Below, one piece after another: positions 330-22,988 of a stretch of 32,833 nucleotides of DNA. The stretch comes from Gammaproteobacteria bacterium. Its GTDB lineage: Bacteria; Pseudomonadota; Gammaproteobacteria; Enterobacterales; Alteromonadaceae. Both the position numbers and the translations under genes were made by a program. The stretch covers positions 1 through 32,833 of the forward strand of contig JAHJNE010000633.1 in assembly GCA_018820995.1 (NCBI GenBank). Reading direction: 5' to 3'. The notes below the pieces were generated by a model, which saw only the letters and a program-made list of their open reading frames with translations, was not told the DNA's origin and ran no database searches. How positions within the stretch are numbered: position 1 is the stretch's first letter; each line of letters opens with the position of its first letter.

Positions 330-1640
330 TTGAAAAAAATAATCACACAATCCACCTTTTTGCTCTGCACCTTGTTATTACTGCCACTATCGAGCAACAG
401 TGCCGAGGCTGAGAAACAACAGTTAAAACTCGGATTTATCAAGCTGACCGATATGGCACCGCTGGCTGTGGCGCTGGAGCTCGGTTATTTCGACGATGAA
501 GGCTTGTCGGTGCAACTGGAAGCCCAACCTAACTGGAAAGTACTGCAAGACCGGGTGTTAGATGGCCAGCTCGATGCTGCCCACATGTTAGCCGGTCAGG
601 TATTGGCTAGTCAGGCTGGGATGACGGGCAATCAAAAGTTACAAACGGCACTGGTGCTTGATCTGCATGGCAACGCCTGTACGGTGAGCAGTCAAATCTG
701 GCAACAATTATCTGCCAAAACAACACCGCCCATTCCGCTGGATGCAACTGCACTGCAAAGCATTCCAACACAACTTAAATTTGGCATGGTGTTCCCGGTC
801 TCCAGCCATAACTATGAACTACGTTACTGGCTGGCTGCAGGTGGCTTGCATCCGGGTTTTTATGCACCCAAAACCGGCGATAATTCTGGCCAGCTGGAAG
901 CGGATGTCCTGATCTCCGTGGTTCCACCGCCACAGATGCCGGCAGCACTTGAATCCGGTACTGTCGCAGGTTATTGCGTTGGCGAACCATGGAATCAACA
1001 AGCTGCGGCCCGCAAGCTCGGCGTACCGGTCATCAGCAATAGTGATATCCGTGGCTTCATGGCGGAGAAAGTACTTGGCGTCAATAGCAAGTGGGCCGCT
1101 AAGCACCCGGTGACGCATCTGAAATTGGTCAAAGCGCTGATCCGGGCTGGTGCTTGGCTGGACGCGCAAGATAATGCGAACCGTTCAGAAGCTGCACAAA
1201 TGATTTCGGCTGCCTATTACGTCGGAGCGGACGCTGCAATTATTAAACGCAGCATGACTGGTGAGTTTGAATTCGCGCCAGGCGATAATCGTAAGGCACC
1301 TGATTTTAATGTGTTTTTTCGATATCACGCGACCTATCCATTTTACTCTGACGCGATCTGGTATCTGACGCAAATGCGTCGGTGGGGGCAGTTAAGCGAC
1401 GCCAAACCTGATAGTTGGTATCTCGATACAGCAAAAAATGCTTTTGACGTGCAACTTTACCAACAAGCAGCAAGGGAATTGATCACCGAAGGTAAATTTA
1501 GCAGCGCTGATTTCCCTGATTTTGCCAAAGAATCAGGTATCAAAAAACCTACTGACTACAAATTTGCTGATAACAAGCTGTTTGATGCCAACACGCCAAA
1601 TAAGTACCTGCAGCAATTTACTATTGGTTATAAGGATTAA
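330..1640 (+). CDS. nrtA: Nitrate ABC transporter substrate-binding protein (NrtA/NasF-like)
   Basis: 436 aa with signal peptide, 'LKLGFIKLTDMAPLAVALELGYFDDEGLSVQLEAQPNWKVLQDRVLDGQLDAAHMLAGQ' typical of the NrtA/CmpA family; TTG start after GGAGG; followed by permease and ATPase. Confidence 0.92.
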   Translation: MKKIITQSTFLLCTLLLLPLSSNSAEAEKQQLKLGFIKLTDMAPLAVALELGYFDDEGLSVQLEAQPNWKVLQDRVLDGQLDAAHMLAGQVLASQAGMTGNQKLQTALVLDLHGNACTVSSQIWQQLSAKTTPPIPLDATALQSIPTQLKFGMVFPVSSHNYELRYWLAAGGLHPGFYAPKTGDNSGQLEADVLISVVPPPQMPAALESGTVAGYCVGEPWNQQAAARKLGVPVISNSDIRGFMAEKVLGVNSKWAAKHPVTHLKLVKALIRAGAWLDAQDNANRSEAAQMISAAYYVGADAAIIKRSMTGEFEFAPGDNRKAPDFNVFFRYHATYPFYSDAIWYLTQMRRWGQLSDAKPDSWYLDTAKNAFDVQLYQQAARELITEGKFSSADFPDFAKESGIKKPTDYKFADNKLFDANTPNKYLQQFTIGYKD

Positions 1641-1644
1641 CCGG

Positions 1645-2610
1645 ATGATTATTCAACTAAAAAACCAATTACAAGTTAAAACTGCCGCCGTTTGGCAATC
1701 TAAATTACGTGAAACTCTGCGCCAGGGTAGTCTGACCTTGGCCGGTCTGACGATCTTTGTGTTGTGCTGGGCTACCTTGGCTGCCAATCTGCACACCTCG
1801 TTAGGCCAATTTCCAGGTCCGGCGGTGGTCGCCGGTCAGCTCAAAGCATTGGTGGCCGAACATCAGGCCGAACAGCTTCGCGAACAACTGTTTTATCAAC
1901 GCCAGCACGAACGGCTGACCAACAATCCAGCGGCGGTCGCACGGCCTTACAACGGCCGACCGACCTTTTTCAGCCAAATTCAGACCAGCCTGCAAACCGT
2001 GCTCAGCGGCTTTTTACTCGCAAGCCTGCTGGCGATCCCCGCCGGGATCCTGATTGGCTTAAGTCCGCTGAGTTACAGTGCAGTGAATCCATTAATCCAG
2101 TTACTCAAACCGGTATCTCCCCTAGCCTGGTTGCCGCTGATTACGATTGTGGTGAGCGCTAGCTACCCGACTGATGGCATGTTCAGCCGCTCTTATCTGG
2201 TATCGGTTTTTACCGTTGCATTGTGTTCGTTGTGGCCCACGTTAATTAACACCATTGTTGGTGTATCACAGGTGCCAGCCGATTTGCAAAATGTCAGCAA
2301 GGTCTTGCGGCTGAACTGGTACCGGCATGTTCGTGCCATTGTGTTACCGTCGGCAGTCCCGATGATTTTCACTGGTTTACGGTTATCGCTGGGAATTGCC
2401 TGGATGGTCCTGATCGCGGCGGAGATGCTGGCGCAAAATCCCGGCCTCGGCAAATTTGTCTGGGATGAGTTTCAGAATGGTTCCAGCGACTCTTTGGCAA
2501 GGATTTGTGTGGCCGTCGGCGTCATTGGTTTTATCGGTTTAATTCTGGACCGACTGATGCTCGCGCTACAGAAAGCGGTGAGCTGGGATAAAAGTGTGCA
2601 ACTGCGCTAA
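1645..2610 (+). CDS. nrtB: Nitrate ABC transporter permease (NrtB/NasE-like)
   Basis: BPD-type inner-membrane permease; 'RLSLGIAWMVLIAAEMLAQNPGLGKFVWDEFQNGSSDSLARI' typical of NrtB. ATG at 1645 is preferred over the longer ORF that overlaps nrtA. Confidence 0.92.
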   Translation: MIIQLKNQLQVKTAAVWQSKLRETLRQGSLTLAGLTIFVLCWATLAANLHTSLGQFPGPAVVAGQLKALVAEHQAEQLREQLFYQRQHERLTNNPAAVARPYNGRPTFFSQIQTSLQTVLSGFLLASLLAIPAGILIGLSPLSYSAVNPLIQLLKPVSPLAWLPLITIVVSASYPTDGMFSRSYLVSVFTVALCSLWPTLINTIVGVSQVPADLQNVSKVLRLNWYRHVRAIVLPSAVPMIFTGLRLSLGIAWMVLIAAEMLAQNPGLGKFVWDEFQNGSSDSLARICVAVGVIGFIGLILDRLMLALQKAVSWDKSVQLR

Positions 2611-2667
2611 GCATTCTCGATCCGGCTTGGGAAAATTATCGTTCAAACAAACCCCTTTAAAGGAACT

Positions 2668-3525
2668 ATGATGAAAAAACATCTGGAACTCAGTCAGGTT
2701 GGCATTAGCTTCCCAACCCCCAAAGGCCCTTTTGTCGCGCTGCAAAACGTCAATCTGAGCATCGCCAAAGGGGAAATTATCAGTCTGATCGGTCATTCTG
2801 GTTGTGGCAAATCGACGGTGCTGAATATTATTGCCGGCTTGCTAAAAGCGACCGAAGGTGGGGTGATTTTAAACCAGAAAGAAGTCAACGAACCCGGGCC
2901 GGAACGCGCCGTGGTATTTCAGCATCACTCTTTATTACCATGGCTATCAGTTTATGAAAATGTCGCTTTAGCGGTGCGCCAGGTATTTTCCGGAAAAATG
3001 ACTAAACCGCAGATGCAACAATGGATTGAACACAATCTTGCATTGGTACAGATGAGTCATGCCCGTGATAAAAAACCTTCTGAAATCTCCGGCGGGATGA
3101 AACAACGTGTCGGCATTGCCCGAGCGCTCGCGATGCAGCCTCAAGTGCTGTTGATGGATGAGCCTTTTGGGGCATTAGATGCACTCACCCGCGCCCATTT
3201 ACAGGACAGTGTGCAACAAATCCAGGCAGAACTTGGCAATACGGTGATATTAATCACCCATGATGTCGATGAAGCGGTGCTGCTCTCTGATCGGATTGTG
3301 ATGATGACCAATGGTCCGGCTGCCACTGTTGGCGAAGTGCTGCAAATTGACTTACCCCGCCCACGCGACCGCCTCGCATTAGCAGATTGCGCCAAATACA
3401 ATCATTACCGGCATCAGGTATTAAGCTTCCTGTACGAAAAACAGCGCAAAATCGAGCCTTTACCCGTCACAAAAAACAATCAAAACAAACCACAAGCCAA
3501 AGCTTTAGCAGAGGCCAGGGTATGA
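2668..3525 (+). CDS. nasD: Nitrate ABC transporter ATP-binding protein (NrtD/NasD-like)
   Basis: Walker A GHSGCGKST, signature SGGMKQRVGIARAL, Walker B VLLMDEPFGALD. Confidence 0.92.
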   Translation: MMKKHLELSQVGISFPTPKGPFVALQNVNLSIAKGEIISLIGHSGCGKSTVLNIIAGLLKATEGGVILNQKEVNEPGPERAVVFQHHSLLPWLSVYENVALAVRQVFSGKMTKPQMQQWIEHNLALVQMSHARDKKPSEISGGMKQRVGIARALAMQPQVLLMDEPFGALDALTRAHLQDSVQQIQAELGNTVILITHDVDEAVLLSDRIVMMTNGPAATVGEVLQIDLPRPRDRLALADCAKYNHYRHQVLSFLYEKQRKIEPLPVTKNNQNKPQAKALAEARV

Positions 3526-4805
3526 CGTATCAGCTTGACGAATCGACCTATTATGATCTGGTCATTGTTGGGTTTGGGATGGCAAGTCACCGATTATTGC
3601 AAGAGCTGCCCCTGCACTCGCAGTCCCGGCTTCGCATTCTGGTGTTGGGTGAAGAACCTCATCACGCGTACAACCGGGTACTGTTGCCACAATTTGTCGA
3701 AGATTGCGCCACCGATTTATCTTTAGCTGCAGTTGATTTCACCAGGCATGATTTAAGCTTTCATACCGGCGATGCGGTCTGTGTGATCAACCGGCGGGAA
3801 CATCAGGTGCAAACGGTCACCGGACGGCAGTTTTATTACCGGCAACTGGTGCTCGCGACCGGCTCTGCGCCGGTGTTTCCTGATTTTTACCATGCCGTAG
3901 CGCTGAACAGTCCGACGGTATGCGGGAAGATTCTGGCGCTGAGGAATGTGCAGGATGCGATCAAGATCAGAGCCATCGCTGAAGGCAGCCATATTGTCAT
4001 TCAGGGTGGAGGTTTTATTGCCCTGGAAACCGCTGCTGCACTGAGTACACATTGCCGGGTAACCGTTTGTCATCGTGGTGCATACCTGATGAACCGACAA
4101 TTAGACCAAGCCGCGGCAGAATTGCTGCAAAAAGCTTTAACTGCCCGCGGCATCACCTTGTTGCTGCGCAGTGAAATCAATGGTGCAATGGACTCTGCGG
4201 ACAAATTACAGCTCGCCATAACTGGCCCTGCCGGCGTCAGCACGCTGGCAACCGATCTGTTAATTGCGGCGCTTGGCGTGAAACCCCGAATTGAATTAGC
4301 TGAGGCCGCTGGACTTGTCATCAACCGGGGTATTGTGGTGAATAGTCAACTGCAAACCAGTGATCCAGAAATTTTTGCCATCGGCGAATGTGCAGAGTGC
4401 CATGGTGAAACTGTCGGGTTAGTGGCGCCTGCGTATCAGCAAGCAAAAGTACTGGCGCACTTTTTGTCTGGCCAACGGCACACACATTATCAAAGCCATA
4501 GCACAGCAACCATGTTAAAAATCAGCGGCCTGGCAATCAGTTCTATCGGCAATGTCGCGCTACTACAACAGAAGTCTGAGCTTGAAGTTAAAACCATGGT
4601 CTATCAGGATTTTCAGCAAGGGGATTATCGACGGATTTGGCTGCGTGATGGTCAACTCCTGGGCGCAGTACTTTGCGGCGATACCAGCCTCAGTCCTTAT
4701 TATCAGCGGTTGATATCGCAATCAGCCACCGCCGACACAAGTGTAATTGAAACGACCTTGGTGGCAGACGATATGTTCAATGATTTGTTGTTTTACGCCG
4801 CGTAA
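3522..4805 (+). CDS. FAD-dependent NAD(P)H oxidoreductase, NirB-N-terminal/NasB-like electron-transfer partner for nitrate reductase
   Basis: N-terminal DLVIVGFGMASHRLLQEL dinucleotide fold, 'HHAYNRVLLPQ', second fold 'IVIQGGGFIALETAAAL', 'IFAIGECAE'; ATGA overlap with the upstream ATPase gene. Confidence 0.82.
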   Translation: MTYQLDESTYYDLVIVGFGMASHRLLQELPLHSQSRLRILVLGEEPHHAYNRVLLPQFVEDCATDLSLAAVDFTRHDLSFHTGDAVCVINRREHQVQTVTGRQFYYRQLVLATGSAPVFPDFYHAVALNSPTVCGKILALRNVQDAIKIRAIAEGSHIVIQGGGFIALETAAALSTHCRVTVCHRGAYLMNRQLDQAAAELLQKALTARGITLLLRSEINGAMDSADKLQLAITGPAGVSTLATDLLIAALGVKPRIELAEAAGLVINRGIVVNSQLQTSDPEIFAIGECAECHGETVGLVAPAYQQAKVLAHFLSGQRHTHYQSHSTATMLKISGLAISSIGNVALLQQKSELEVKTMVYQDFQQGDYRRIWLRDGQLLGAVLCGDTSLSPYYQRLISQSATADTSVIETTLVADDMFNDLLFYAA

Positions 4806-4822
4806 AACCAAAAAATCGATTT

Positions 4823-4881: not shown

Positions 4882-7590
4882 TTAAGCTAGCGCTTTTTGT
4901 AACAACTGCCGGATCTCAGGCAGACATGAACCGCAGCCGGTGCCACATTTTAGCCTTTCCCCTAAACTGACACTGCAGTGGGCGCCCCCAGCAATCGCTT
5001 GCTGAATACTTTGTTGGCGCACCTGAAAACAACTACAGATCAGTGCAGAGCAGTCGGCTGCGGCCATCGGCGCCCCGCGCAATAACTGTCGCCTGGCGCT
5101 GGTCGTCAACTCACCGGCAAAACATTGATTAAGCCACTGCCGATCCAGTGCCGGCAGCGTCGGACCAGCATACATTAACGCTTGTAGATGTAACGCGTTG
5201 ACAAAAGCTTGGCGCCAATGCTGCGAGCCATGAGCTTCGAGTTGCTGTAGTTCAAGCGCATGATGCGATTGCCGCAGCGCGGCCGTGAGCTGCTGACTGA
5301 TTAGCCTAAATTGTTGCGAGAGTTCTGACACAGGCACTGTCAGTGCCAGCCGGTATTCAAACATGTGGGCATGCGGGACCAGCACGCCATAACCACACAA
5401 AGGCTGAAATCGACTCAGTAAATCTGCCTGACGGCTCAGCAGCACCAATTCGGCGGTCACCGGCATTTTTTTCAGTTGTACCCGACCTTGTTTAAACGCT
5501 GGTTGGCGTGAAATCGGATCGCGCCTCTCGTCATACAACACGTCACAACAAGAGGTTGTGCTAAATTGACCGCTCCAATGCATCGGCACAAATAACTCGC
5601 CACAGCGCTGCGCATCGGTGACTTGAGCGCGGCCGCGAAATAAGCCCTGCCGGTTTGACAACTCAACCAAATCACCATCCTGGAGTTGAAACAACCGAGC
5701 ATCCGAAGGATGAATGGCAATAAAGGGTTCACTTTGATGTTGCATCAACGCAGGGACCCGACCCGTCCGGGTCATGGTATGCCATTGATCACGCAAACGT
5801 CCGCTATTGAGCAGGAACTCCCAAGGGTTGCTGCCGCAATTTACCGGATCCGCCCCCTTGAGGGGGATCAGTCGTGCTTTGCCATCAGGCGTATAAAAGT
5901 GGCCATCGGCAAACAATCGGCTTTGTTCTGAATTTGCCTGACGCAGCGGCCAGCATTGTGGTTGCCAGGTGTCATATTCTTCGTCCGACAGCGTGCGGCA
6001 TGCGTTCAGGTCCAAGGCACGACGACCGCCATTACATAAGGTTGTAAGGGCTGCATGTTCACGGAAAATTTGTGCTGGGTGCTGGTAATTAAAACCATGT
6101 TGAAAACCCAGCGCTTTGGCCAGCTGACAAATAATTTGCCAGTCCGCGCGCGCTTCACCGGGGGGGGCTAAAAATGCCCGCTGTCGTGAGATGCGCCGTT
6201 CCGAATTGGTCACAGTGCCATCCTTTTCAGCAAAACCCAATGCCGGAAAAACAATATCGGCAAGGGCTACTGTGTCGGTATCCTGATAGATATCAGACAC
6301 AATAACCAGTTCACAACGTGCCAACGCCTGCTTAACCAAATTGGCCTGCGGCATACTGACCACCGGATTAGTGGCCATGATCCAAACCGCTTTAATTTCA
6401 CCACGGCCGATAGCCGCAAACAAATCAACTGCAGTATATCCACCTTGGGTGACCAGCGCTGGTGCCCGCCAGAACTGTTGTAGTGCTTGCCATTCAGCCT
6501 CTGGCACGGGGTCAATCCCGGCAAGCTCAGCAGGAAAACGTAAATGCCCCGCCAACTGATTAGCCAACGCTCCGACCTCACGTCCGCCCATAGCATTGGG
6601 TTGTCCGGTCACCGAAAACGGACAGGCACCTGGTTTGCCGATCCGGCCCGTGGCCAAATGCACATTAATAATGGCGTTCACTTTATCGGTGCCATTTTGT
6701 GCTTGATTGACCCCCTGCGAAAACACCGTGACGGTGCGCGGGCACTTAGCAAACCACTGAAAAAACTCGGTAAGTTCCACCAGCGACAAATCGCAGTATG
6801 CGGCAAGTTGCGACAGATCCTGCCAACAGCTCGCGGTATCGAGCGCTTGCTGTAACCCCTGACAGTGCTGACGGGTAAATTCATGGTCGATATACCCAGC
6901 CGTAGCCAGATAGCTGAGTAAACCACTAAATAACGCGACATCTGTGCCCGGTTTCAGTGGTAAAAACAGATCCGCGCTATCGGCAGTCGCTGTGCGGCGC
7001 GGATCAATCACGACGATTTTTTTGGCAGGGTATTTTTCGCGGGCAGCCTGCATGCGCTGAAATAACACTGGATGTGCCCAGGCCAGATTGCTGCCCACCA
7101 GGACCACCAGATCTGCCAGTTCCAGATCCTCATAACAGCCCGGCACCACATCTTCACCAAAAGCCCTTTTATGTCCGGCTACGGTCGAAGCCATGCACAA
7201 GCGGGAGTTGGTATCCAGATGACTACTCCCGATAAAACCTTTCAGTAATTTATTTGCGACATAATAATCTTCGGTGAGCAACTGGCCGCTCAAATACATC
7301 GCCACACTGCCCGGGCCATGTTCATCGATAATGGCTTGCAAACGCGAAGCCGCCGTTGCCAGCGCCAATGGCCATTCGGCTGGCTTACCATCGAGCAGTG
7401 GCTGTAATAATCGCCCCTGCGGTTGCAGAGTTTGGCCATGCGCCGCACCTTTTACACATAACCGACCGAAATTCGCTGGATGCAGCGGATCGCCGACGAT
7501 ACCTGTAGTTTGATGATTTCGGTTGATACCGCAGCCGACCCCGCAATAGGGGCAAGTACTGCGGAGTTCGCTATTCGCAAGAGATGGCAT
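4882..7590 (-). CDS. nasA: Assimilatory-type nitrate reductase catalytic subunit (NasA), molybdopterin oxidoreductase with C-terminal BFD-like [2Fe-2S] domain
   Basis: N-terminal CPYCGVGCGI 4Fe-4S motif, NTDKVNAIINVHLATGRIGKPG, GQPNAMGGREVG; C-terminal ALICSCFQVRQQSIQQAI...CGTGCGSCLPEI. ATG at 7590 preferred over the upstream TTG at 7602. Confidence 0.95.
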   Translation of the reverse strand: MPSLANSELRSTCPYCGVGCGINRNHQTTGIVGDPLHPANFGRLCVKGAAHGQTLQPQGRLLQPLLDGKPAEWPLALATAASRLQAIIDEHGPGSVAMYLSGQLLTEDYYVANKLLKGFIGSSHLDTNSRLCMASTVAGHKRAFGEDVVPGCYEDLELADLVVLVGSNLAWAHPVLFQRMQAAREKYPAKKIVVIDPRRTATADSADLFLPLKPGTDVALFSGLLSYLATAGYIDHEFTRQHCQGLQQALDTASCWQDLSQLAAYCDLSLVELTEFFQWFAKCPRTVTVFSQGVNQAQNGTDKVNAIINVHLATGRIGKPGACPFSVTGQPNAMGGREVGALANQLAGHLRFPAELAGIDPVPEAEWQALQQFWRAPALVTQGGYTAVDLFAAIGRGEIKAVWIMATNPVVSMPQANLVKQALARCELVIVSDIYQDTDTVALADIVFPALGFAEKDGTVTNSERRISRQRAFLAPPGEARADWQIICQLAKALGFQHGFNYQHPAQIFREHAALTTLCNGGRRALDLNACRTLSDEEYDTWQPQCWPLRQANSEQSRLFADGHFYTPDGKARLIPLKGADPVNCGSNPWEFLLNSGRLRDQWHTMTRTGRVPALMQHQSEPFIAIHPSDARLFQLQDGDLVELSNRQGLFRGRAQVTDAQRCGELFVPMHWSGQFSTTSCCDVLYDERRDPISRQPAFKQGRVQLKKMPVTAELVLLSRQADLLSRFQPLCGYGVLVPHAHMFEYRLALTVPVSELSQQFRLISQQLTAALRQSHHALELQQLEAHGSQHWRQAFVNALHLQALMYAGPTLPALDRQWLNQCFAGELTTSARRQLLRGAPMAAADCSALICSCFQVRQQSIQQAIAGGAHCSVSLGERLKCGTGCGSCLPEIRQLLQKALA

Positions 7591-7600
7591 CGATTGCTCC

Positions 7601-7648
7601 AAAACAAAAAAGGCGCCGCTACCGACAAAATGTCAGCGCAGGCGCCTT
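7601..7648 (-). terminator. Rho-independent terminator-like hairpin immediately upstream of the nasA RBS (candidate attenuator)
   Basis: Minus strand: AAGGCGCC-TGCGCTGACATTTTGTCGGTAGC-GGCGCCTTTTTTGTTTTGGAG..ATG. Confidence 0.8.
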
Positions 7649-8297: not shown

Positions 8298-8411
8298 ACG
8301 CCGAGCCCTTCTGCGCTAACTCAGGAATTCCTGACATGCCAGAGCGGCCGTGGCAATCATGCCACCGGGCCTGACTGGAAACGGTCTGACCTCCCCACTT
8401 GGAAAGGTGTC
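8298..8411 (+). ncRNA. Moco (molybdenum cofactor) riboswitch / Moco RNA motif upstream of moaA
   Basis: GCGGCCGTGGCAATCATGCCACCGGGCC...GACCTCCCCACTTGGAAAGGTGTCGATG closely resembles the E. coli moaA leader as recalled (TTGGCCGTGACAATG...GATTGCCACCAGGGCG...GCCTCCCGTATCTGGAAAGGTGTACATG). The RBS lies at the 3' end of the element. Confidence 0.85.
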
Positions 8412-8416
8412 GATGT

Positions 8417-9388
8417 ATGCTGCAAGACTCATTTAAACGCCGGTTCAGCTATTTACGTTTGTCGCTGACCGAAAGCTGCAACTTCCGTTGCAACTATTGC
8501 TTGCCCAATGGCAGCGCTTGTGACAACAAAGCTGCAGAGCTGACACTAACGGAAATCAAACATCTGGTGAAAGGTTTTGCCCTTGCTGGCACCAGTAAAA
8601 TACGGTTAACCGGTGGCGAGCCGTCGCTGCGTCGTGATTTGTGCAATATCATTGAAACCGTGCGCGGGACGCCAGGGATCACGCAGGTTGCAATCACCAC
8701 CAACGGCTATCGCTTAAATAAAGACATTGATCGCTGGCTCGATGCCGGACTTACCGCGCTGAATGTCAGCGTCGATAGTTTAGATGCAGACACCTTCCAT
8801 TTAGTGACAGGTCAGGATCGTCTACCGGATATTCTGGCTGGGATTGACCGGGCGTTGGCGCTGGGTCTGGCAAAAGTTAAAATTAATACCGTGTTATTGC
8901 GCCAATATAACGGCAACTCCCTGTCCCGCTTTCTGGATTTTGTCCGCGACAAACCGATCAGTCTGCGGTTTATTGAATTGATGCAAACCGGTGATAACGG
9001 CCAGTTTTTTGCGGCGCAACATCTCAGTGGTCGCCATATCATCAATCAGCTCACAGCTGCCGGCTGGCAACTGCTACCACGCCTTTATAATGCAGGCCCG
9101 GCACTTGAATATGCGCATCCGGATTATTTAGGCACTATTGGACTGATCATGCCGTACAGTGATCATTTCTGTGATGACTGCAATCGGTTAAGGGTTTCCA
9201 GCACCGGTCAGCTGTTTTTATGTTTATTTGCCGAGCAACATCAAAATTTACGGCATTTGCTTGCACAAGATCAGCCGGACGCGCTTGTTGACTTCCTGCA
9301 GGCACAACTGCAATTTAAACCTTTGAGTCATCAACTGGCAAATGCCCAAACCGGTCAGACCCGACAACTCGCGATGATTGGCGGTTGA
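8417..9388 (+). CDS. moaA: GTP 3',8-cyclase MoaA (radical SAM)
   Basis: CNFRCNYCLP radical-SAM motif, RLTGGEPSLRRDL, second cluster CDDCNRLRVSSTGQLFLCLF, C-terminal GG. Confidence 0.95.
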   Translation: MLQDSFKRRFSYLRLSLTESCNFRCNYCLPNGSACDNKAAELTLTEIKHLVKGFALAGTSKIRLTGGEPSLRRDLCNIIETVRGTPGITQVAITTNGYRLNKDIDRWLDAGLTALNVSVDSLDADTFHLVTGQDRLPDILAGIDRALALGLAKVKINTVLLRQYNGNSLSRFLDFVRDKPISLRFIELMQTGDNGQFFAAQHLSGRHIINQLTAAGWQLLPRLYNAGPALEYAHPDYLGTIGLIMPYSDHFCDDCNRLRVSSTGQLFLCLFAEQHQNLRHLLAQDQPDALVDFLQAQLQFKPLSHQLANAQTGQTRQLAMIGG

Positions 9389-9390
9389 TC

Positions 9391-10008
9391 ATGACTTATC
9401 TAAATCATCCACAATTTTCGGTGCTGATCCTCTGCGGTGGTAAATCCTCACGCATGGGACAGGACAAAGCATTACTCCAATTAAACGGTGAAACGCTGCT
9501 ACAAAGGGCAGTCAGGCTTGGCCATCAGCTTGGTGCAGCACAGGTGCTGATCAGTCGCAACCAGAGCGGTTTTATTCAGGACCAAGTGCAAAATGCTGGT
9601 CCAATGGCAGGGATCGCCGCTGCGCTATCACATTGCAGCAGCCGCTGGCTCCTCGTGTTACCGATAGATATGCCGCTGCTGTCCCCTTTGGCGCTGACCC
9701 CGCTGTTGCGATACCCGATATTGCACCGCCATGGCGCCTTTATTGAGGGTTTTCCGCTGCCGGTCATGCTTGAAAAGACAGAGGTACTGCAACAATTACT
9801 GGCTGGTTTATTGGCAGATCCATCGGCGAGCCGGTCTTTAAAAAGCGCCTGGAACAGGCTTGGACTCAAACAACTTTCAATGCAAACCCCTGAGGCCTTT
9901 CAAAACAGTAACAACCCGGCTGATTTTGCCAAAATTACCGCCCTGTTAGCGACGCCAGTCTGTCGTCAAGCAGGTGTTGCTGCGATACGGCCCTGCACTG
10001 GAGCTTAA
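9391..10008 (+). CDS. mobA: Molybdenum cofactor guanylyltransferase MobA
   Basis: VLILCGGKSSRMGQDKALLQLNGETLL nucleotidyltransferase motif, DMPLLSP, NNPADF. Confidence 0.92.
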   Translation: MTYLNHPQFSVLILCGGKSSRMGQDKALLQLNGETLLQRAVRLGHQLGAAQVLISRNQSGFIQDQVQNAGPMAGIAAALSHCSSRWLLVLPIDMPLLSPLALTPLLRYPILHRHGAFIEGFPLPVMLEKTEVLQQLLAGLLADPSASRSLKSAWNRLGLKQLSMQTPEAFQNSNNPADFAKITALLATPVCRQAGVAAIRPCTGA

Positions 10009-10009
10009 G

Positions 10010-10540: not shown

Positions 10541-10552
10541 AAGGAACACCTG

Positions 10553-11035: not shown

Positions 11036-11042
11036 TAATGCC

Positions 11043-11306: not shown

Positions 11307-11308
11307 AC

Positions 11309-13349: not shown

Positions 13350-14440
13350 TGGCACAACTGCGGCTGCAGGCGAACTGGCAGCGGAAAAACTTCAACCTGA
13401 ATATTGATACCACACTGCCGGCACAGGGGATCACCGCATTATTCGGCCGCTCTGGCTGCGGCAAAAGTAGTTTATTGCGATTGATCGCGGGCCTGGACAC
13501 TATCCCCGCAGCCACCGTGGTTTTTAATAATCAGCAATGGCAAACCGGCCGCAGTTTTATCCCCTTGCATCAGCGCCGAATTGGCCTGGTGTTTCAGCAA
13601 GCCAGCTTATTACCGCATTTATCTGCCGGACAAAATTTGCGCTACGGCTTTGAGCGGGTGCCGGCAGCAGAACGCCGATTACAGCCAGATCAGGTGATCC
13701 GGATGCTGGAACTACAAACCATCTTAACGCAGCCGGTCAATAGCCTGTCCGGCGGGCAACAACAACGACTAGCGCTAGGCCGAGCCTTACTGGCGAATCC
13801 GCAGTTGTTGCTGTTGGACGAGCCTTTCGCTGCGCTCGATAGCCAAAGCAAAACTGCGATTTTGCCATATATCCGCACTCTGGTTAGTGAAACCAAAGTG
13901 CCGATCATTTTTGTGTCGCATGATAGCCGTGAAGTAGAAAAACTTGCCGATCACCTGGTGCTTATGGACGGTGGTCAAATCCGCCAACAAAGTGACATTA
14001 AAACGGCGTTGGCCGATCCGCAAAGTCCGCTATTTGATGGTTCAGACATCACCTCGTTGTTTTTTGGCAAGGCAGGCAAAGTTGACCAATGGGGCCGCCA
14101 CCCTGTCTTCAGCGACGGTTGCTGTATATGGCTTGGTGCCGGAACAGAATTCAGATCAAATGACGTAATGGACAACACCAACACCGGCGAAGTACGACTC
14201 TGTATCCGGGCAAAAGATGTCAGTTTGGCCTTAAGGGAACTGCCGGACATTTCCATTCAAAACCAGTTATCCGCGCAAATTATCAAGTTGCAGCCTTATT
14301 TACAGCAGATATTGGTCACGCTAAAACTTGCAGACGGACAATTACTTCAAGCAGAAATTACCCCCTGTGCCGCTGCACAATTGCAGCTTCAGCCTGGCAT
14401 GCCCGTGGTGGCACTCATTAAGGCCATCGTTATTCGCTGA
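13349..14440 (+). CDS. modC: Molybdate ABC transporter ATPase ModC with C-terminal TOBE domain
   Basis: Walker A GRSGCGKSS, SGGQQQRLALGRALLANPQLLLLDEPFAALD, C-terminal TOBE-like region. Confidence 0.94.
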   Translation: MAQLRLQANWQRKNFNLNIDTTLPAQGITALFGRSGCGKSSLLRLIAGLDTIPAATVVFNNQQWQTGRSFIPLHQRRIGLVFQQASLLPHLSAGQNLRYGFERVPAAERRLQPDQVIRMLELQTILTQPVNSLSGGQQQRLALGRALLANPQLLLLDEPFAALDSQSKTAILPYIRTLVSETKVPIIFVSHDSREVEKLADHLVLMDGGQIRQQSDIKTALADPQSPLFDGSDITSLFFGKAGKVDQWGRHPVFSDGCCIWLGAGTEFRSNDVMDNTNTGEVRLCIRAKDVSLALRELPDISIQNQLSAQIIKLQPYLQQILVTLKLADGQLLQAEITPCAAAQLQLQPGMPVVALIKAIVIR

Positions 14441-14630: not shown

Positions 14631-16364
14631 CTATGTCGTAGCACAAAGGCCACGCTGAAAACTAGCCAACTTGTCGCTGTAACTGTGCTGCGGTAACATC
14701 ACTTCAATCAGTCTTGACCTGCGGGTGTCAGCCAGTGCGTCCGCCAGCGCGCCGTCAAATTGTTGTTCATTCCAGATCTGACTAGCACCACAGCCCATGG
14801 ATCTGCCAAGTGCGGCATACTGCCAGCCGCCTAAAGCAGTGGCGTTTAATTCCGGAGCAAAGGCTTTAATCATCCCCCAACTTTGATTGTTCAACACGAT
14901 CACAATCGGGTTCAAACCATAACGCTGACAATGGCCAAGCTCTAAACCGGTCATCTGAAATGCGCCATCGCCGACTAGCACGATCGGCCTTAAACCAGAA
15001 CTCAGCTGGACACCCAAAGCGGCTGGCACGGCAAAGCCCATCGAGGCATAAAAAGCTGGAGCCAACAGCATAGAGGGTTCAGCCGATAAGGCGGCAAATA
15101 AACAATCGCCGATATCTACGACAAAAGGATATAACTGCGACTGTTGGCTTAACAGGTGATGCAATCGTCTGACTAAAGTATCTGAGCGCCAGCATGGGGA
15201 CTGCTGCGGTTTTGCAGCTCTCTCCGATTGAACAGTAGCAGTGGCGGACTCCAGCACCCTTGCATCCACAGATGGCAGCGCTGCATCGCTAGCGTCACCA
15301 AACGCCTGCTGCAGCAGCGTTAACACCTGGCAAGCGGGCAACTCCACCAGGGAACCATCCGGTAAAATGCTCTGCTGCTCGTTGACCCAAAGCACCGCTC
15401 TGCCCGCCAGCAAATGTGGATGCGCGGCAAAATTGCTGTCTGATCGGATCACCCCAGCGCAAATCAGCAAATCAGCCTGCAGCAACCAGGGCAAACCAGC
15501 ATCTTCTTTGCCGCCGCTATAAACGCCTTTGTACCAAACAGCGCTGATATCCAGCACACCACGGCCCAACAAGGTCGTCAGTGCCGGCATACCAGAATGC
15601 TGTGCTAATTCAGTGACTGCCAGATCAAAACCAAATCGTTTTGCTTTCACGCCCACCAGCAAACATGGCTGTTTGTACTGAGCACTCACCGTCTGACAAA
15701 AGCTTGTGAATAGCAGTTCGGCAGCATGCTTTTCAGCGTTTTTATTGCTCTGGCCGACCACTGTTGTGCTCACTACGTTATTTTCGATGGCGCCGGTATT
15801 TGCTTCGGAAGAATGTGTTCGGTGCTCAACCGCAACCATCGCCATATCCCGCGGCAGTTCGATCAATACCGGTCTGCTGGCTGATTTTGCCAGTGCCATG
15901 ATCTGCGCCAGGTCAGTCGCGGCTGTGGCTGGATTATCCAGCCGGCATTGTGCGCACGTCACTTCGGCTAGAATCCGCCGCTGCGCGTCCAAATCGCTGA
16001 TCTGATGGTGTAACAATAACCCAGAGTCCACTTCGGCCTGCGATGGGTAACCGGCAAAAACGAATAAAGGTACATACTCCATATAGGCTTGGGCAATGGC
16101 ATTGACGGCATTCAGCGCACCGGCACCATAAGTCAGCATCACCGCTGCCGGACTATTGCTCCAACGCGCTGCGGCATCGGCGGCAAATACCGCTGAAGGC
16201 TCATGACTGAGCTGAATAAGCCGCAAGCTACAAGCTGAAGCGCCCTGCAGCTCCAGTGCCTGTAACCAGGGCAGTACAAAATCGCCCGGCACAGTATACA
16301 ACTCCGTAATGCCATGACCCTGCAGCAGCCGGGCCAGCGTTTGGGACAACGTTTCTGTATGCAT
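14631..16364 (-). CDS. Thiamine-diphosphate-dependent decarboxylase, indolepyruvate/phenylpyruvate decarboxylase-like
   Basis: PGDFVLPWLQAL, LSHEPSAVFAADAAARWSNSPAAVMLTYGAGALNAVNAIAQAYMEYVPLFVFAGYP, LLLHHQ, ThDP motif GDGAFQMTGLELGHCQRYGLNPIVIVLNNQSWGM. Confidence 0.78.
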   Translation of the reverse strand: MHTETLSQTLARLLQGHGITELYTVPGDFVLPWLQALELQGASACSLRLIQLSHEPSAVFAADAAARWSNSPAAVMLTYGAGALNAVNAIAQAYMEYVPLFVFAGYPSQAEVDSGLLLHHQISDLDAQRRILAEVTCAQCRLDNPATAATDLAQIMALAKSASRPVLIELPRDMAMVAVEHRTHSSEANTGAIENNVVSTTVVGQSNKNAEKHAAELLFTSFCQTVSAQYKQPCLLVGVKAKRFGFDLAVTELAQHSGMPALTTLLGRGVLDISAVWYKGVYSGGKEDAGLPWLLQADLLICAGVIRSDSNFAAHPHLLAGRAVLWVNEQQSILPDGSLVELPACQVLTLLQQAFGDASDAALPSVDARVLESATATVQSERAAKPQQSPCWRSDTLVRRLHHLLSQQSQLYPFVVDIGDCLFAALSAEPSMLLAPAFYASMGFAVPAALGVQLSSGLRPIVLVGDGAFQMTGLELGHCQRYGLNPIVIVLNNQSWGMIKAFAPELNATALGGWQYAALGRSMGCGASQIWNEQQFDGALADALADTRRSRLIEVMLPQHSYSDKLASFQRGLCATT

Positions 16365-16510
16365 CAAAATATCCTGTGGGATCACCCAACTTGGCTAAAA
16401 CTAGCGCTATTTAAGGCGTAAATGCAGCAGCAAAGGTTGCGCTACATCAACAAAACCGGCGGCTTTGCCAAGGCAGAATAGGTAGTCTTGATGAGGTATT
16501 ATTGAAGCAA

Positions 16511-16565: not shown

Positions 16566-17876
16566 CTACAACCACCAATGGCTTTTCGGTTGAACCCAGA
16601 TTTCTTCTCCGGCCTGCACATCCGAGCGCGGTTGTTCCAACCAGGTTAAGGCGTCCGCCATCAGCAACGAAGTTAACATGCCCGAGCTATCGGTCCCGAC
16701 CGGCTCCGCCTGAATGCCATCGGCCGTCACCTGCAAACTAACCCTTTGCATATCGAGCCGCCCAGGCTTTTTGCGCAATGGCTGTGTGGCAGTGGCTACC
16801 CACAACTTCGGGCTTTTCAGCGGTTGGCCACTGAGTAACTGCAAAGCGGGGATCAACAACTGTTCACAAGTCACAGCGGCGGAGACCGGATTGCCTGGCA
16901 GACCAAAAATCCACACAGGTGGAGTTTGTTCAGTAGGTTTGCATTGCAACCAACCAAAGGCAAAGGGTTTACCGGGCTTGATCGCCACTTGCCAGAAATC
17001 CATTTGCCCCATTTCGGCAAGCACCTGCCGGGTATAGTCAGCATCACCGACCGATACGCCACCACTACTGACAATCACATCAACTTCGGTTGCGGCCTGC
17101 GTAAACAAGGCGCGAAGAGCCACCGGATCGTCTGCCACCCAGCCTAAATCAATTACCTCGCAGCCAAACCTTTTCAGCACGCCAAGCAACATGATCCGGT
17201 TACTGTCAAAGAGATCGCCCTCCATTAAAATAGAGCCGGGCTGCTTTAACTCGTCGCCACTGGATAACACCCCCACCCTTACCTTTTGGTACACCTTAAT
17301 CTTTGCAATACCAAGCGTCGCTAATAAACCAAGCTGCAACGGGCCAAGGACGGTACCTTTGGCCAGCACAAGTTGCCCAAGCTCCAGCTCACTGCCGCAC
17401 AGGCGGATATGCTGCCCGGCCACCGGACGCCTGGTTAGCGCTAAATGGCTGCGTTGGTCATTCAGCCAGCGGGTATCTTCCTGCATCACCACCGTATCCA
17501 AATCGGCGGGCACCACAGCGCCGGTGGTGATCCGCAGACAAGCCCCAGGCGGAACTTCTCCCTGATAAGGATGACCAGCCAGACTTTGGCCAATCACAGG
17601 CCACTGTTGATTTGGATCAGCAATGACATCGGCAAAACGCAACGCATACCCATCCATTGCTGCATTGGTGGCCGTCGGCACCGGTAGCGGCGAGTACACA
17701 TCTTCGGCCAGAGTTCGGTCTAAAGCGCCATCTATTGCCACTGCTGTTGAACACAGTTGTAGCTGTTGACTGATAGTAGTCACCAGCCGCGCCAGCGCAT
17801 CGACCAGCGGCAGCATAGGTTTGACTGCTTTTGTTTGCGGGTTCATCTGTTGTAAATTGCTGCTTTGCGATTCCAT
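16566..17876 (-). CDS. moeA: Molybdopterin molybdenumtransferase MoeA
   Basis: NAAMDGYALRFADV, RITTGAVVPADLDTVVMQEDT, VGVLSSGDEL, DSNRIMLLGVL, VIVSSGGVSVGDADYTR, GLPGNPVSA. Confidence 0.95.
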   Translation of the reverse strand: MESQSSNLQQMNPQTKAVKPMLPLVDALARLVTTISQQLQLCSTAVAIDGALDRTLAEDVYSPLPVPTATNAAMDGYALRFADVIADPNQQWPVIGQSLAGHPYQGEVPPGACLRITTGAVVPADLDTVVMQEDTRWLNDQRSHLALTRRPVAGQHIRLCGSELELGQLVLAKGTVLGPLQLGLLATLGIAKIKVYQKVRVGVLSSGDELKQPGSILMEGDLFDSNRIMLLGVLKRFGCEVIDLGWVADDPVALRALFTQAATEVDVIVSSGGVSVGDADYTRQVLAEMGQMDFWQVAIKPGKPFAFGWLQCKPTEQTPPVWIFGLPGNPVSAAVTCEQLLIPALQLLSGQPLKSPKLWVATATQPLRKKPGRLDMQRVSLQVTADGIQAEPVGTDSSGMLTSLLMADALTWLEQPRSDVQAGEEIWVQPKSHWWL

Positions 17877-17885: not shown

Positions 17886-18563
17886 CTACTTCTTACTTTG
17901 AAAATTAACCATCCAGACCGCAGCTTCGACACGTGAACGCAGATGCAGTTTTTTCAGCAAATGCTTCACATGCACCTTCACAGTACCATCTGAGATACTA
18001 AGCTCACGGGCAATCAGTTTATTGCTGCGCCCTTTGGCAATCAGCTCAAGGATTTCCTGTTCACGATGGGTCAGCTGGCTTAAATCCGTGGCTGGTTTTT
18101 CTACCGGTCGCCGAATGGCTTCGGCTAAAGCAGCATTAACCGCTTCACTCAGGACCATTTTGCCTTGCACCGCTTTTTTGATTTGTTCCAACAACTCGTC
18201 AGGGTCCGAGTCTTTTAACAGATAACCATCCGCGCCCAAACTAATGGCTTTAATCACATCTTCATTCGAATCGGATACCGTAAGCATGACAATCCTCGAA
18301 GTGACGCCATCATCACGCAGCTGTTTCAGGGTCTGATGACCATCCATGCCCTGCATATTTAAATCCAGAATAATTAAATCCGGATCCAGTTCATTGGCCA
18401 GCGCGATAGCTTCTGCCCCCGAACTAGCCTCAGCCACCACCTGTAATGAGTCTTCAAACGCTAATAGTTGACGCAATCCTTTGCGTAACAACGGATGGTC
18501 ATCAACCAGCATCACGCTGTAACTATCAGTTTCTTCGGCGAGTTGTTTTTGCTGTTCTGACAT
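17886..18563 (-). CDS. narL: NarL/NarP-type nitrate response regulator (REC + LuxR-type HTH)
   Basis: VMLVDDHPLLRKGLRQLL, DLIILDLNMQGMDGHQTLKQLRDDG, LTVSDSNEDVIKAISLGADGYLLKDSDP, LTHREQEILELIAKGRSNKLIARELSISDGTVKVHVKHLLKKLHLRSRVEAAVW. Confidence 0.88.
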   Translation of the reverse strand: MSEQQKQLAEETDSYSVMLVDDHPLLRKGLRQLLAFEDSLQVVAEASSGAEAIALANELDPDLIILDLNMQGMDGHQTLKQLRDDGVTSRIVMLTVSDSNEDVIKAISLGADGYLLKDSDPDELLEQIKKAVQGKMVLSEAVNAALAEAIRRPVEKPATDLSQLTHREQEILELIAKGRSNKLIARELSISDGTVKVHVKHLLKKLHLRSRVEAAVWMVNFQSKK

Positions 18564-18874: not shown

Positions 18875-20491
18875 ATGGCCGATCTAAAAAGATGGCAACC
18901 AGAAAACGAACAATTCTGGGCGGAAACGGGTAAAGCCATCGCTACCCGCAATCTTTGGATCTCGATACCAAGCCTGTTATGCGGCTTTGCGGTCTGGATG
19001 TTATGGAGCATTCTGACAGTCCAGATGCTAAATCTTGGCTTTCCTTACAGCGCCAGCGATTTATTCTCATTAACTGCGATCGCCGGGCTAACCGGGGCGA
19101 CCTTGCGCATTCCGGCCAGTTTTTTTGTCCGGTTATGTGGCGGGCGCTACACCGTCTTTTTAACGACTTCACTGTTGATGCTGCCGGCAATTGGCACCGG
19201 TCTGGCACTACAAGATAAAAATACGCCGTTTTGGGTGTTTCAGCTGATGGCGCTGTTGTCGGGTATTGGTGGGGGGAACTTCGCCGCCTCGATGTCAAAT
19301 ATCAGTTTCTTTTATCCAAAAAAACAACAAGGTCTGGCGCTTGGGTTAAATGCAGGCCTTGGTAATTTTGGCGTGACCAGTATGCAAATTCTGGTGCCGC
19401 TATTTATGACCTTTGGCGCTTTTACCTTGGTGGGGGGTGGCGACTCAATGACACTGCAAAAAGCCAGTGGCACCTTGATTGGTGCCATTCCGGCCGGCAG
19501 TGAAACCTGGGTACAAAATGGCGGTTTTGTCTGGTTATTGTTGTTGGTACCTTTAGCCGTCGCGACTTGGTTTGGTATGAATAATATCAATACCGATGAA
19601 GTCACCCCAAAATTGCCATCGGCACCCGTGTCATTTGCCATTCAGTTGTCGATGCTGGCCATTGGTTTTTTGACTGCGATAGCCGGCCTGTGGCTGATGT
19701 TACCTGAGTCAGCCAATGGCTCCGGCTTTGGCGTCCCCAAAGAACTGGTGCTGATTGCTGTGTTATTCGCCACGGTATTTTTATTAAAACTACTGCCCGG
19801 CGCCATTCGCACTAGCCTTGAGCGTCAATATCAAATATTCGGTAATAAACACACCTGGGTGATGAGCATATTGTACGTGATGACGTTTGGCTCTTTTATT
19901 GGATTCTCTGCTGCCTTCCCACTGTCGATCCAGGTGATATTTGGTTATAGCCATCAATTGGTAGACGGGGTGATGACACACACTACGGTGAATCCAAATG
20001 CACCAAGTGCGCTGACCTACGCCTGGATTGCACCCTTTATTGGTGCCTTGATCCGGCCGGTTGGTGGTTGGTTGGCCGATAAACTTGGCGGTGCTTTTGT
20101 CACTCAGTTATGCTCGCTGGTGATGGTGGCCTGTGCCTTAGGAGCGGGTTACTACATGCAACAGGCTTATCAATCAGCAACGCCTGAGCAGTATTTTATG
20201 CCGTTCTTTTTGATTTTCCTCGGCCTGTTTGCAGCTAGCGGTATTGGGAATGGTTCCACTTTCCGAACAATTGCGGTGGTTTTTCCAAAAGAACAAGCAG
20301 GCCCGGTACTGGGCTGGACATCAGCCGTCGCGGCTTACGGCGCATTTTATATTCCACAGGTGTTTGGCGAGCAAATCAAAGCGGCCACCCCGGAATATGC
20401 GATGGTCGGGTTTGCGCTGTTCTATGCCTTATGTTTGGTCATCAACTGGTTCTTTTACTTGCGCAAAAATGGTGAGTACTACAACCCATAA
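18875..20491 (+). CDS. narK: NarK-family nitrate/nitrite MFS transporter
   Basis: RNLWISIPSLLCGFAVWMLWSILTVQMLNLGFPY, GIGGGNFAASMSNISFFYPKKQQGLALGLNAGLGNFGVT nitrate-signature motifs, multiple TM segments. Confidence 0.93.
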   Translation: MADLKRWQPENEQFWAETGKAIATRNLWISIPSLLCGFAVWMLWSILTVQMLNLGFPYSASDLFSLTAIAGLTGATLRIPASFFVRLCGGRYTVFLTTSLLMLPAIGTGLALQDKNTPFWVFQLMALLSGIGGGNFAASMSNISFFYPKKQQGLALGLNAGLGNFGVTSMQILVPLFMTFGAFTLVGGGDSMTLQKASGTLIGAIPAGSETWVQNGGFVWLLLLVPLAVATWFGMNNINTDEVTPKLPSAPVSFAIQLSMLAIGFLTAIAGLWLMLPESANGSGFGVPKELVLIAVLFATVFLLKLLPGAIRTSLERQYQIFGNKHTWVMSILYVMTFGSFIGFSAAFPLSIQVIFGYSHQLVDGVMTHTTVNPNAPSALTYAWIAPFIGALIRPVGGWLADKLGGAFVTQLCSLVMVACALGAGYYMQQAYQSATPEQYFMPFFLIFLGLFAASGIGNGSTFRTIAVVFPKEQAGPVLGWTSAVAAYGAFYIPQVFGEQIKAATPEYAMVGFALFYALCLVINWFFYLRKNGEYYNP

Positions 20492-20505
20492 TGAAAAGGA
20501 TATTG

Positions 20506-20540
20506 AAGCCGACTGGGCTTGTGGTTTCAGTTGGCTTTTG
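20506..20540 (+). terminator. Terminator after narK
   Basis: AAGCCGACTG...CAGTTGGCTTTT hairpin just after the narK stop. Confidence 0.6.
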
Positions 20541-20775
20541 AATCCTTAGTTTTATCTGAAGTATAAAGCATCAACTCTGCCAAATCACACTCGAAATAAT
20601 CACACAAAATTTCAATCGTTGCCGTTGTAGTCGAGTGGCGGTACTTCGGGTTTGCCATTTTGGCTAATGAGGTGCGGTTTACCCCTGTCTCGTCCGACAC
20701 ATTTTGCATAGTGATCTTGCGACCTTCCCGGGCAGCTTTTGCTTCTATGAGCTCTTTGATACGAAAAATAATCAT
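20527..20775 (-). CDS. Small XRE/Cro-CI-type HTH transcriptional regulator
   Basis: 82 aa, ITMQNVSDETGVNRTSLAKMANPKYRHSTTTATIEILCDYFECDLAELM, HTH_26-like. Confidence 0.8.
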   Translation of the reverse strand: MIIFRIKELIEAKAAREGRKITMQNVSDETGVNRTSLAKMANPKYRHSTTTATIEILCDYFECDLAELMLYTSDKTKDSKAN

Positions 20776-20787
20776 AAAATCCTATAA

Positions 20788-20838
20788 TGTTCTTTGACAG
20801 AACACCTCCCCTCATCTATTTTGTTCTTTGAAAGAACA
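20788..20838. promoter_or_regulatory. Twin palindromic operators between divergent XRE and excisionase/integrase genes
   Basis: TGTTCTTTGACAGAACA (20788-20804) and TGTTCTTTGAAAGAACA (20822-20838); 34 bp apart. Confidence 0.8.
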
Positions 20839-20857
20839 TTTTTGATAAGGGGTGTTT

Positions 20858-21094
20858 ATGTCACATACGTTGTTAGACGCCAGACAACTTTCCAAACGCA
20901 TTCATTACAGTTCAGTGTATATCAATCGCGTCTTGAAAGATTCAGTTTTTCACGAAGGCATACATTACATCCGTCCTTTTAGTGGACGAAAGATCTTGTA
21001 TATCTGGGAAGCAGTCGAAACCGAGCTGTACAAAGCAGGTGTCCGTGGTTGTTACGCCATCCCGATGTCGCGCGGAGGTGTTTCTTATGGCTAG
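20858..21094 (+). CDS. Small excisionase/AlpA-like protein preceding integrase
   Basis: 78 aa, MSHTLLDARQLSKRIHYSSVYINRVLKDSVFHEGIHYIRPFSGRKILYIWEAVE; short winged-HTH-like protein, stop overlaps the integrase start. Confidence 0.6.
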   Translation: MSHTLLDARQLSKRIHYSSVYINRVLKDSVFHEGIHYIRPFSGRKILYIWEAVETELYKAGVRGCYAIPMSRGGVSYG

Positions 21095-22283
21095 TATCCG
21101 CAGCCGCAATGGCAAACTCTTCCTAGATTTTTATTATTCTGGTGTGCGCTGCCGCGAACAAACTGAACTGGATGATTCAGTGCTTAACCGGCGAAAACTC
21201 GAGAGGCTGCTGAACACTATCACACAAGACATCAACCTCGGGATCTTCATATATCGCGATGTGTTTCCGCACTCAGCAAAAATGGCTCAATTTACCGATG
21301 CGGACCAACAAGCGCTGATTAAAAAGCAGCAAAATGCGCATCTGGTCAGCAATCATCAACATAAGTTACGTTCGACCGATTTTGCTGCCATGGCGCTGGA
21401 TTGGTACGAAACCAACCTCTGTCGCTGGCAGCCGGGCTATCAATACAACATCCGGCTTATCATAAACAGTTATTTGCTACCGGTCTTTGGTTCACAGCAG
21501 CTACATGAGATCACACGCGCGTCTATCCTGCAATTTCGCGCCGATCTAGCGGCATTAAAACCAGAAAAATCGGCAGACTTTATCAACCACGTCATGGGCA
21601 CTTTACGAATGATCCTGGCTGAAGGCGCTGCTCGTTACAACTTGCCGCTGGTCTTTACCAATATTAAGACGCTGCGCATTGGACAGACGGAGGTGAACCC
21701 GTTCACGTTACAACAAATGCATAACCTCATCGAGGCAGTGCGAGTAGACTTTAAAAACTACTACATCGTACGATTTTTAACCGGCCTGCGGACAGGGGAG
21801 ATCGACGGTTTGCAGTGGAAATATGTCGATTTTGATCGTCGACAGATTTTAGTGCGTGAAGCAATTACCAACGGCAAGTTGGGACCATTAAAAACGCCGA
21901 GTAGTCGACGGGAAATTGACATGAGTACTCCTGTCTATGAGGCATTGCTTGAGCAATATGAAATGACCGGCAAAACTTGTCCTTTTGTGTTCTGCAACAC
22001 TGCCAACACCCCGCTTGATCACCGTAATGTACGTGATCGCATCTGGGCGCCATTACTCAAGCAACTGAAGATACCATACAGGCGACCATACGAAACAAGG
22101 CACACGACAGCAACACTGTGGCTCGCAGCTGGCGAAAACCCGGAGTGGATAGCACGACAGTTGGGGCACGCGAATACACAGATGTTATTTAGGGTTTATA
22201 GCCGCTTTGTGCCGAATCTGACACGCCAGGATGGCGCATCATTTGAGCAGCTGTTAAAGTCTCACCGTGATAAAAAGGGCTGA
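21087..22283 (+). CDS. int: Tyrosine-type site-specific recombinase / phage integrase
   Basis: N-terminal Arm-DNA-binding region MASIRSRNGKLFLDFYYSGVRCREQTELDDS; catalytic FLTGLRTGEIDGLQW, PYETRHTTATLWLAAGENPEWIARQLGHANTQMLFRVYSRF. Confidence 0.92.
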   Translation: MASIRSRNGKLFLDFYYSGVRCREQTELDDSVLNRRKLERLLNTITQDINLGIFIYRDVFPHSAKMAQFTDADQQALIKKQQNAHLVSNHQHKLRSTDFAAMALDWYETNLCRWQPGYQYNIRLIINSYLLPVFGSQQLHEITRASILQFRADLAALKPEKSADFINHVMGTLRMILAEGAARYNLPLVFTNIKTLRIGQTEVNPFTLQQMHNLIEAVRVDFKNYYIVRFLTGLRTGEIDGLQWKYVDFDRRQILVREAITNGKLGPLKTPSSRREIDMSTPVYEALLEQYEMTGKTCPFVFCNTANTPLDHRNVRDRIWAPLLKQLKIPYRRPYETRHTTATLWLAAGENPEWIARQLGHANTQMLFRVYSRFVPNLTRQDGASFEQLLKSHRDKKG

Positions 22284-22328
22284 CCAGGCCCTGCCATCGA
22301 CTACACAAAAATCAAAATCGGGAACGAT

Positions 22329-22359
22329 CGCAGTTAAGCCCAGTTAACTGCGTTTTTTT
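22329..22359 (+). terminator. Rho-independent terminator downstream of integrase
   Basis: CGCAGTTAAgcccagTTAACTGCGTTTTTTT. Confidence 0.8.
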
Positions 22360-22875
22360 GGCCAATTGAAGCTCCCTCTCTGATTAGCGATGTTTTAAAC
22401 AATTGTTTGAATTTTGTTTTTCAGGATTTCATCAGCTACTTTCCAGGTTATCCACCATCAACCCTGACATAGTGAAACTGCCCGCGATTACTGCCAACAA
22501 AGTCACTCTCGCTAAATACGCAAAAACCCAGTAAATTCGGGCAAATCTTGCCAAATTCCGGAACGAATAAGTTTGCTGCCGAAAATGCCTGTTTGGGGTA
22601 GAAAATCTATCTTAGCAGCATTTGGACCAATCACTTTGTTTGCAGGGAGCGTGCATCAGATGTCTGCTGATACCCTGACACAGGCATGTTTTTTTGCCTG
22701 AGTCCTTATCGAAACCAGCCAGAGTAAAACCCCTGCAGGCCAATAAAATCAAGCCGGTGGGGGTCAAAACCAGAATGCGCCCGCCGGTGCCCAAAAACAT
22801 GCTTTGATACTGGCAAAAGCGGTTTAGAACGCAGTGCTTCATCCTTTAGCTCACGAACACAATTTCTTCAGGCTT

Positions 22876-22905
22876 TTGATTTTCTTTGTTTAAATTTGAT
22901 ATAAT
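22876..22905 (+). promoter_or_regulatory. Sigma70-like promoter upstream of the tRNA fragment
   Basis: TTGATT - 18 nt - TATAAT. Confidence 0.45.
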
Positions 22906-22939
22906 GCTGATGTGAACTGGCATTCACCAATGCACGCCG

Positions 22940-22988
22940 CACCTTGACATGGTGGGGGTCGGTGGTTCGAGTCCACTAGGACGCACCA
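22940..22988 (+). pseudogene. 3' fragment of tRNA-Val(GAC), from anticodon arm to CCA; likely att site of an integrative element
   Basis: CACCTTGACATGGTGGGGGTCGGTGGTTCGAGTCCACTAGGACGCACCA matches the 3' part of tRNA-Val(GAC) as recalled; no matching 5' acceptor strand or D-arm upstream. Confidence 0.85.

Follow-up and report, generated by a model that had tools for sequence, protein, structure and literature searches.

Is the nitrate and Moco block of this contig the cargo of a genomic island inserted at a tRNA-Val gene, or did the block and the neighbouring integrase come to lie together by separate routes? The window is the whole contig C48 (32,833 nucleotides) of a Rheinheimera draft genome of 4.27 Mb in 677 contigs. 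Its genes run nrtABC, nasB-like, nasA, moaA/mobA/moaBCDE, modABC, moeA, narL and narK, then xre, xis and int, and then the 49-nt 3' end of a tRNA-Val(GAC) gene (Table 1). The genus survey covered 22 genomes.

Gene content of the contig

At the level of single genes, each one named in a preliminary description of this DNA was found in C48 with Pfam and NCBIfam. The layout described for the end of the block, with narK, an XRE repressor, an excisionase-like ORF, a rightward integrase and a + strand tRNA-Val(GAC) fragment, was likewise borne out. The same description called the block a nearly self-sufficient nitrate module, which overstates its content: no sulfite/nitrite reductase domain (nirBD) was found by Pfam among the scanned window proteins, and narL and narK appear to be what remains of a respiratory nar locus.

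The left edge of the contig holds a remnant of scdA, and an ScdA protein search of the assembly gave no other copy. This suggests a truncated edge, and as the contig ends there it falls short of proof. GC content was tried as a marker of origin and set aside, since the difference between the block (51%), the int and macB parts (46-47%) and the other contigs (49%) is too small to decide.

The TPP enzyme gene between modC and moeA is found at that position in R. texasensis, G010, Bowmanella and Pseudidiomarina as well; how it might relate to Moco or nitrate is not evident. A repeat of about 130 bp with self-complementary parts (L046:18298-18427; about 14916-15000) is present on more than 25 contigs of the host genome and belongs to a dispersed Rheinheimera repeat family.

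Table 1. Features along contig C48 and the evidence for each
Feature	Position	Strand	Evidence
scdA, last 11 codons and stop (Fe-S repair, RIC)	1..36	+	AQKGSCCGSCQ-stop matches R. texasensis scdA upstream of nrtA; cut by contig end
nrtA-like nitrate ABC transporter binding protein	330..1640	+	Pfam NMT1_2; 88% to R. texasensis
nrtB-like permease	1522..2610 (homology from 1645)	+	BPD_transp_1; ntrB model below cut-off
nrtC-like ATPase	2668..3525	+	ABC_tran; 95% to R. texasensis
NasB-like FAD/NAD oxidoreductase, resembles the N-terminal half of NirB	3387..4805	+	Pyr_redox_2; NirB model positions 1-383/794
nasA assimilatory nitrate reductase with C-terminal BFD [2Fe-2S] domain	4882..7602	-	Molybdopterin, Molydop_binding, Fer2_BFD; no NCBIfam equivalog above its cut-off
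moaA, mobA, moaB, moaC, moaD, moaE	8399..11815	+	Pfam
modA, modB, modC molybdate transporter	11794..14440	+	Pfam
TPP enzyme, indolepyruvate/phenylpyruvate decarboxylase-like	14631..16385	-	Pfam; top NCBIfam model below cut-off
moeA	16566..17876	-	Pfam
narL response regulator	17886..18563	-	NCBIfam NF007935 above cut-off
narK nitrate/nitrite transporter	18875..20491	+	R. texasensis similarity stops at narK end
xre repressor-like	20527..20775	-	HTH_26; 59% to gene in the G019 tRNA-Val island; stop 36 bp from narK stop
80-aa ORF in excisionase position	20852..21094	+	59% to G019; 47-54% to other int-linked copies; no family match (Pfam; NCBIfam)
Tyrosine integrase	20982..22283	+	Arm-DNA-bind_2, Phage_integrase; 55% to the G019 integrase in tRNA-Val
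tRNA-Val(GAC) 3' 49 nt, candidate attR	22940..22988	+	Equals nt 29-77 of the host's own tRNA-Val(GAC), 49/49
macB, three hlyD, ABC ATPase, acyltransferase, ABC-2, gntR	23364..32017	-	Pfam; macB 94% in G004 and G007
PRC-barrel-like gene, 3' end at contig end	32679..32833	-	75% to G007

History of the nitrate/Moco block

In R. texasensis DSM 17496 (NZ_KL544005.1), the 18 genes of the block recur downstream of scdA in unchanged order and at 57-95% amino acid identity, but this block sits at another locus than that of C48 and has neither the int module nor the tRNA fragment. Behind the R. texasensis narK come three large ORFs, of which one has an integrase domain, whereas narK of C48 is followed by xre, xis and int. 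G010 reads NorR, scdA, moaA and on to narK, with the nrt and nas genes absent between scdA and moaA. In Alishewanella, Bowmanella and Pseudidiomarina the order from moaA to narL and narK is as in C48, but these clusters run on into narX and narGHJI (nar genes recognised by reading the sequences), whereas the C48 block ends at narK and has assimilatory nrt/nas genes ahead of moaA. Based on these gene orders, the C48 block would be an old respiratory nitrate/Moco cluster in which assimilatory genes were inserted between scdA and moaA and from which the nar genes after narK are missing. It is apparently an old genus cluster cut at both ends.

The three ORFs behind narK in R. texasensis (L118:11838-18497) are adjacent and encode proteins of 1206, 841 and 179 aa; the first has a phage-integrase domain and the other two match no family. 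They resemble a recombinase trio, which may be a mobile element and possibly corresponds to the gamma-mobile-trio systems.

Regarding core genes, the host is nearest to G004 and G007 (81-96% for the conserved C140 proteins, about 60% for the fast-evolving DUF3080-like protein) and far from R. texasensis. For moaA, identities are 88% between the host and R. texasensis, 86% between the host and G010, and 87% between R. texasensis and G010; in the same order, they are 86, 88, and 88% for moaC and 94, 93, and 93% for narK. For the core proteins MATE and DUF3080, R. texasensis and G010 share 96 and 81% with each other, and either of them shares 72 and 43-44% with the host. The core tree rejects a grouping of the host with R. 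texasensis (G021) and G010 (AU p 1.7e-10). The core set behind this is small: the tree uses two proteins and the identity table at most seven. Taken alone, the block tree fails to reject a G021 and G010 clade (p 0.22), so the transfer argument rests on the distances, which give no donor lineage for the block.

The gene history of the block conflicts with that of the core genes in both the identities and the core tree, and on this sequence evidence we regard the block as acquired horizontally. The donor probably belonged to the R. texasensis-containing lineage of Rheinheimera. The plasmids searched gave weak narL-narK matches only and no plasmid copy of the block. Whether or not an island was involved, this clearly is a nitrate/Moco cluster that was exchanged between members of the genus.

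The integrase module and the tRNA-Val scar

The integrase is an intact tyrosine recombinase, with its likely start at ATG 21087 (398 aa) and its stop 656 bp ahead of the scar, and the 80-aa ORF is kept next to int in relatives. The 36 bp between narK and xre are too short to hold a left att site, and R. texasensis similarity also stops there; the nitrate block would lie inside the element if the element is whole. Phage and plasmid integrase relatives were tried as a guide to the att sites and discarded, the best-ranked matches being <50% identical and carrying no att information. One IMG/VR relative of the integrase adjoins a tRNA-Arg gene.

The scar matches the host's own tRNA-Val(GAC) at all 49 positions, so it is not a chance resemblance, and the displaced fragment reaches the end of the tRNA gene (CCA). 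ARAGORN detected no intact tRNA in the whole window. The intact tRNA-Val(GAC) lies on contig C140 (7466-7542, +), and patterns of 24, 30, and 37 nt found tRNA-Val 3' copies in the host genome only on C48 and C140. The genome therefore does contain the expected intact tRNA-Val, on the + strand and ending in these 49 nt, but no contig of the assembly joins it to the left end of the block. On C140, a DUF3080-like gene is followed by the tRNA-Val gene, a 56 bp spacer and the contig end; in G007, G015, G018 and R. texasensis, the same DUF3080-like gene precedes a tandem pair of tRNA-Val genes. C140 thus ends where the second tandem copy of the relatives starts, which means that the left junction was not recovered, and this second copy is the likely attB. 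To the left, the R. texasensis DNA preceding nrtA matches only the edge of C48 itself and paralogs in the host genome.

Direct repeats of the type GTGACCAAACG follow the tRNA-Val or tRNA-Arg 3' end at occupied sites (L199, L206, L215, L062), with GTGCCCAAAC variants in G004 and G007. These short repeats are possibly integrase arm-binding sites. The motif GGTGMCCAAA, which belongs to the repeat type found downstream of occupied tRNA sites, is present once ahead of the C48 scar and was rejected as a candidate, 19 of 100 shuffles equalling that count.

Islands at tRNA genes in related genomes

The complete genome G019 has a 60.7-kb stretch with an intact tRNA-Val at one end and, at the other, a 45-nt scar that begins CTTGACATGG; beyond this scar the sequence is similar to that downstream of the tRNA in G006 and G017. 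This island holds the int (55%), xis (59%) and xre (59%) that are closest in the genus to those of C48. An interval of the same kind (22.5 kb) and further remnants were found in G002. The proposed role of tRNA-Val(GAC) as an island site is thus confirmed in the genus, and by the element with the closest integrase relative.

The G019 island and C48 share an orthologous xre-xis-int module, the tRNA, and a scar from the same anticodon region, but their cargo differs, and int is at the intact-tRNA end in G019 and at the scar end in C48. Other homologs of the C48 integrase lie near tRNA-Arg genes in G008 and G021, where the cargo separates int from the intact tRNA-Arg, the layout proposed for C48. 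Next to int in these two genomes no convincing scar was found, the top match being 11-12 nt. Since the position of int varies among relatives, the C48 layout with int by the scar is possible, though unlike that of its closest relative. The G019 cargo (L058, L228-L230) consists of large multi-gene operons in a row, which by eye look like defence systems.

Among known systems, the tRNA-targeted genomic islands defined by Islander (PMC4383910) have, as C48 does, a tyrosine integrase, a displaced 3' tRNA fragment and a crossover in the anticodon region. The Islander-type signature also needs a matching intact tRNA on the same contig, and C48 is without that half. Nitrate metabolism genes on a mobile element are described for the nitrate respiration conjugative element of Thermus (PMC5748679), which is respiratory and conjugative, whereas no conjugation genes were seen in the C48 window.

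The right flank

Beyond the scar, the macB-gntR cluster is a chromosomal neighbour and not cargo. Among the genus genomes, close macB matches were found in G004 and G007 and in no other. In these two, macB-gntR lies near a glucanase-TonB-glycosyltransferase locus, which the host has on C369. At every tRNA-Val site read in the genus macB was absent after the tRNA, a result that is valid if no rearrangement occurred. The empty tRNA-Val site sought in relatives with the right flank of C48 was not found, and the tRNA-Val sites of G004 and G007 lead to other genes. Past the CCA, C48 shares 8 nt with the sequence downstream of tRNA-Val in G008, and then nothing.

Compared with G007, the surroundings of gntR-macB show local duplication and rearrangement: an esterase-like gene is present twice and a PRC-barrel gene is separated (C369/L279, C453/L278, and C48 32679-32833). 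Under any reading, a rearrangement in the host lineage or a misassembly through the tRNA repeat is needed.

In G004 (L108-L109, L104), nitrate-assimilation genes lie to either side of gntR-macB, with MoeB, MogA, nasA, cobA and HipBA-like genes on one flank and moaA, nirDB, nasB, nrtCBA and moeA on the other.

The block as proposed cargo of a tRNA-Val element

The kind of system proposed is an ordinary genomic island, and this reading is partly supported. The right end of the element (attR) would consist of the integrase, the P arm and, last, the 3' scar of tRNA-Val. Recombination by the integrase would have taken place between tRNA-Val(GAC) and an attP bearing a tRNA-Val 3' copy, with the crossover in the anticodon region; this would have rebuilt the whole tRNA at the far left end and displaced the original 3' end to the scar position. 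A later rearrangement, or an unusual neighbourhood, would place macB-gntR just past the scar.

The intact int module, the perfect scar, the use of the hot spot by a related integrase and the foreign history of the block are established. Counting against a simple insertion are the right flank, which is not beside tRNA-Val in relatives, the int-free block of R. texasensis and the int placement in G019, and the left junction is absent from the assembly. We infer that the two ends are those of a single element encompassing the block, that this element is still intact, and that the macB side was rearranged. The directly adjoining island is the likely carrier that brought the cluster in, and we give close to even credence to the imported block being the cargo of a tRNA-Val integrative element.

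The main rival to the cargo reading, possible but in our judgement rather improbable, is that the block and the int module are unrelated. The block would be a resident or separately imported locus, and int and scar the remnant of another tRNA-Val element, a neighbour whose left part was deleted up to the narK terminator. The gene order of the block is that of an old genus cluster, which occurs int-free in R. texasensis and, in part, in G010; resemblance to R. texasensis stops with narK, and the 3' end of xre extends into the narK terminator region. Moreover, the close relative G004 has its own nitrate genes, different from those of C48 (nasA 61%), on both sides of gntR-macB, which indicates that nitrate genes can occur at this locus in the absence of an integrase and keeps this rival alive. 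However, it requires a deletion that stopped exactly behind narK and left xre-xis-int and the scar intact, and sister elements also have other genes starting close behind xre (about 0.15-0.25 kb in G008 and G019).

A displaced scar, with an inversion, translocation or misassembly via the 49-nt repeat joining tRNA-Val to the macB locus and no element end here, is quite unlikely: macB-gntR does lie elsewhere in G004 and G007, its flank is rearranged (second esterase copy and PRC-barrel fragment on C369, C453 and C48), and the tRNA repeat breaks contigs in the host draft and in other drafts, but the integrase stop is 656 bp ahead of the scar, the genus-closest integrase uses tRNA-Val, and the 8 nt past the CCA match G008.

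Possible spread of nitrate assimilation in the genus

If the block is indeed cargo, a cofactor pathway would be travelling together with its enzyme on a site-specific element. Somewhat more tentatively, we suggest that a mobile tRNA-Val island carries assimilatory nitrate uptake and reduction with the needed Moco and molybdate genes and spreads this module between Rheinheimera species, the integrase family of this proposed island having other cargo genes in relatives. Such spread would help to explain the patchy nitrate assimilation among Rheinheimera species: in 14 of the 22 genus genomes, a nasA match was absent or was short and weak only.
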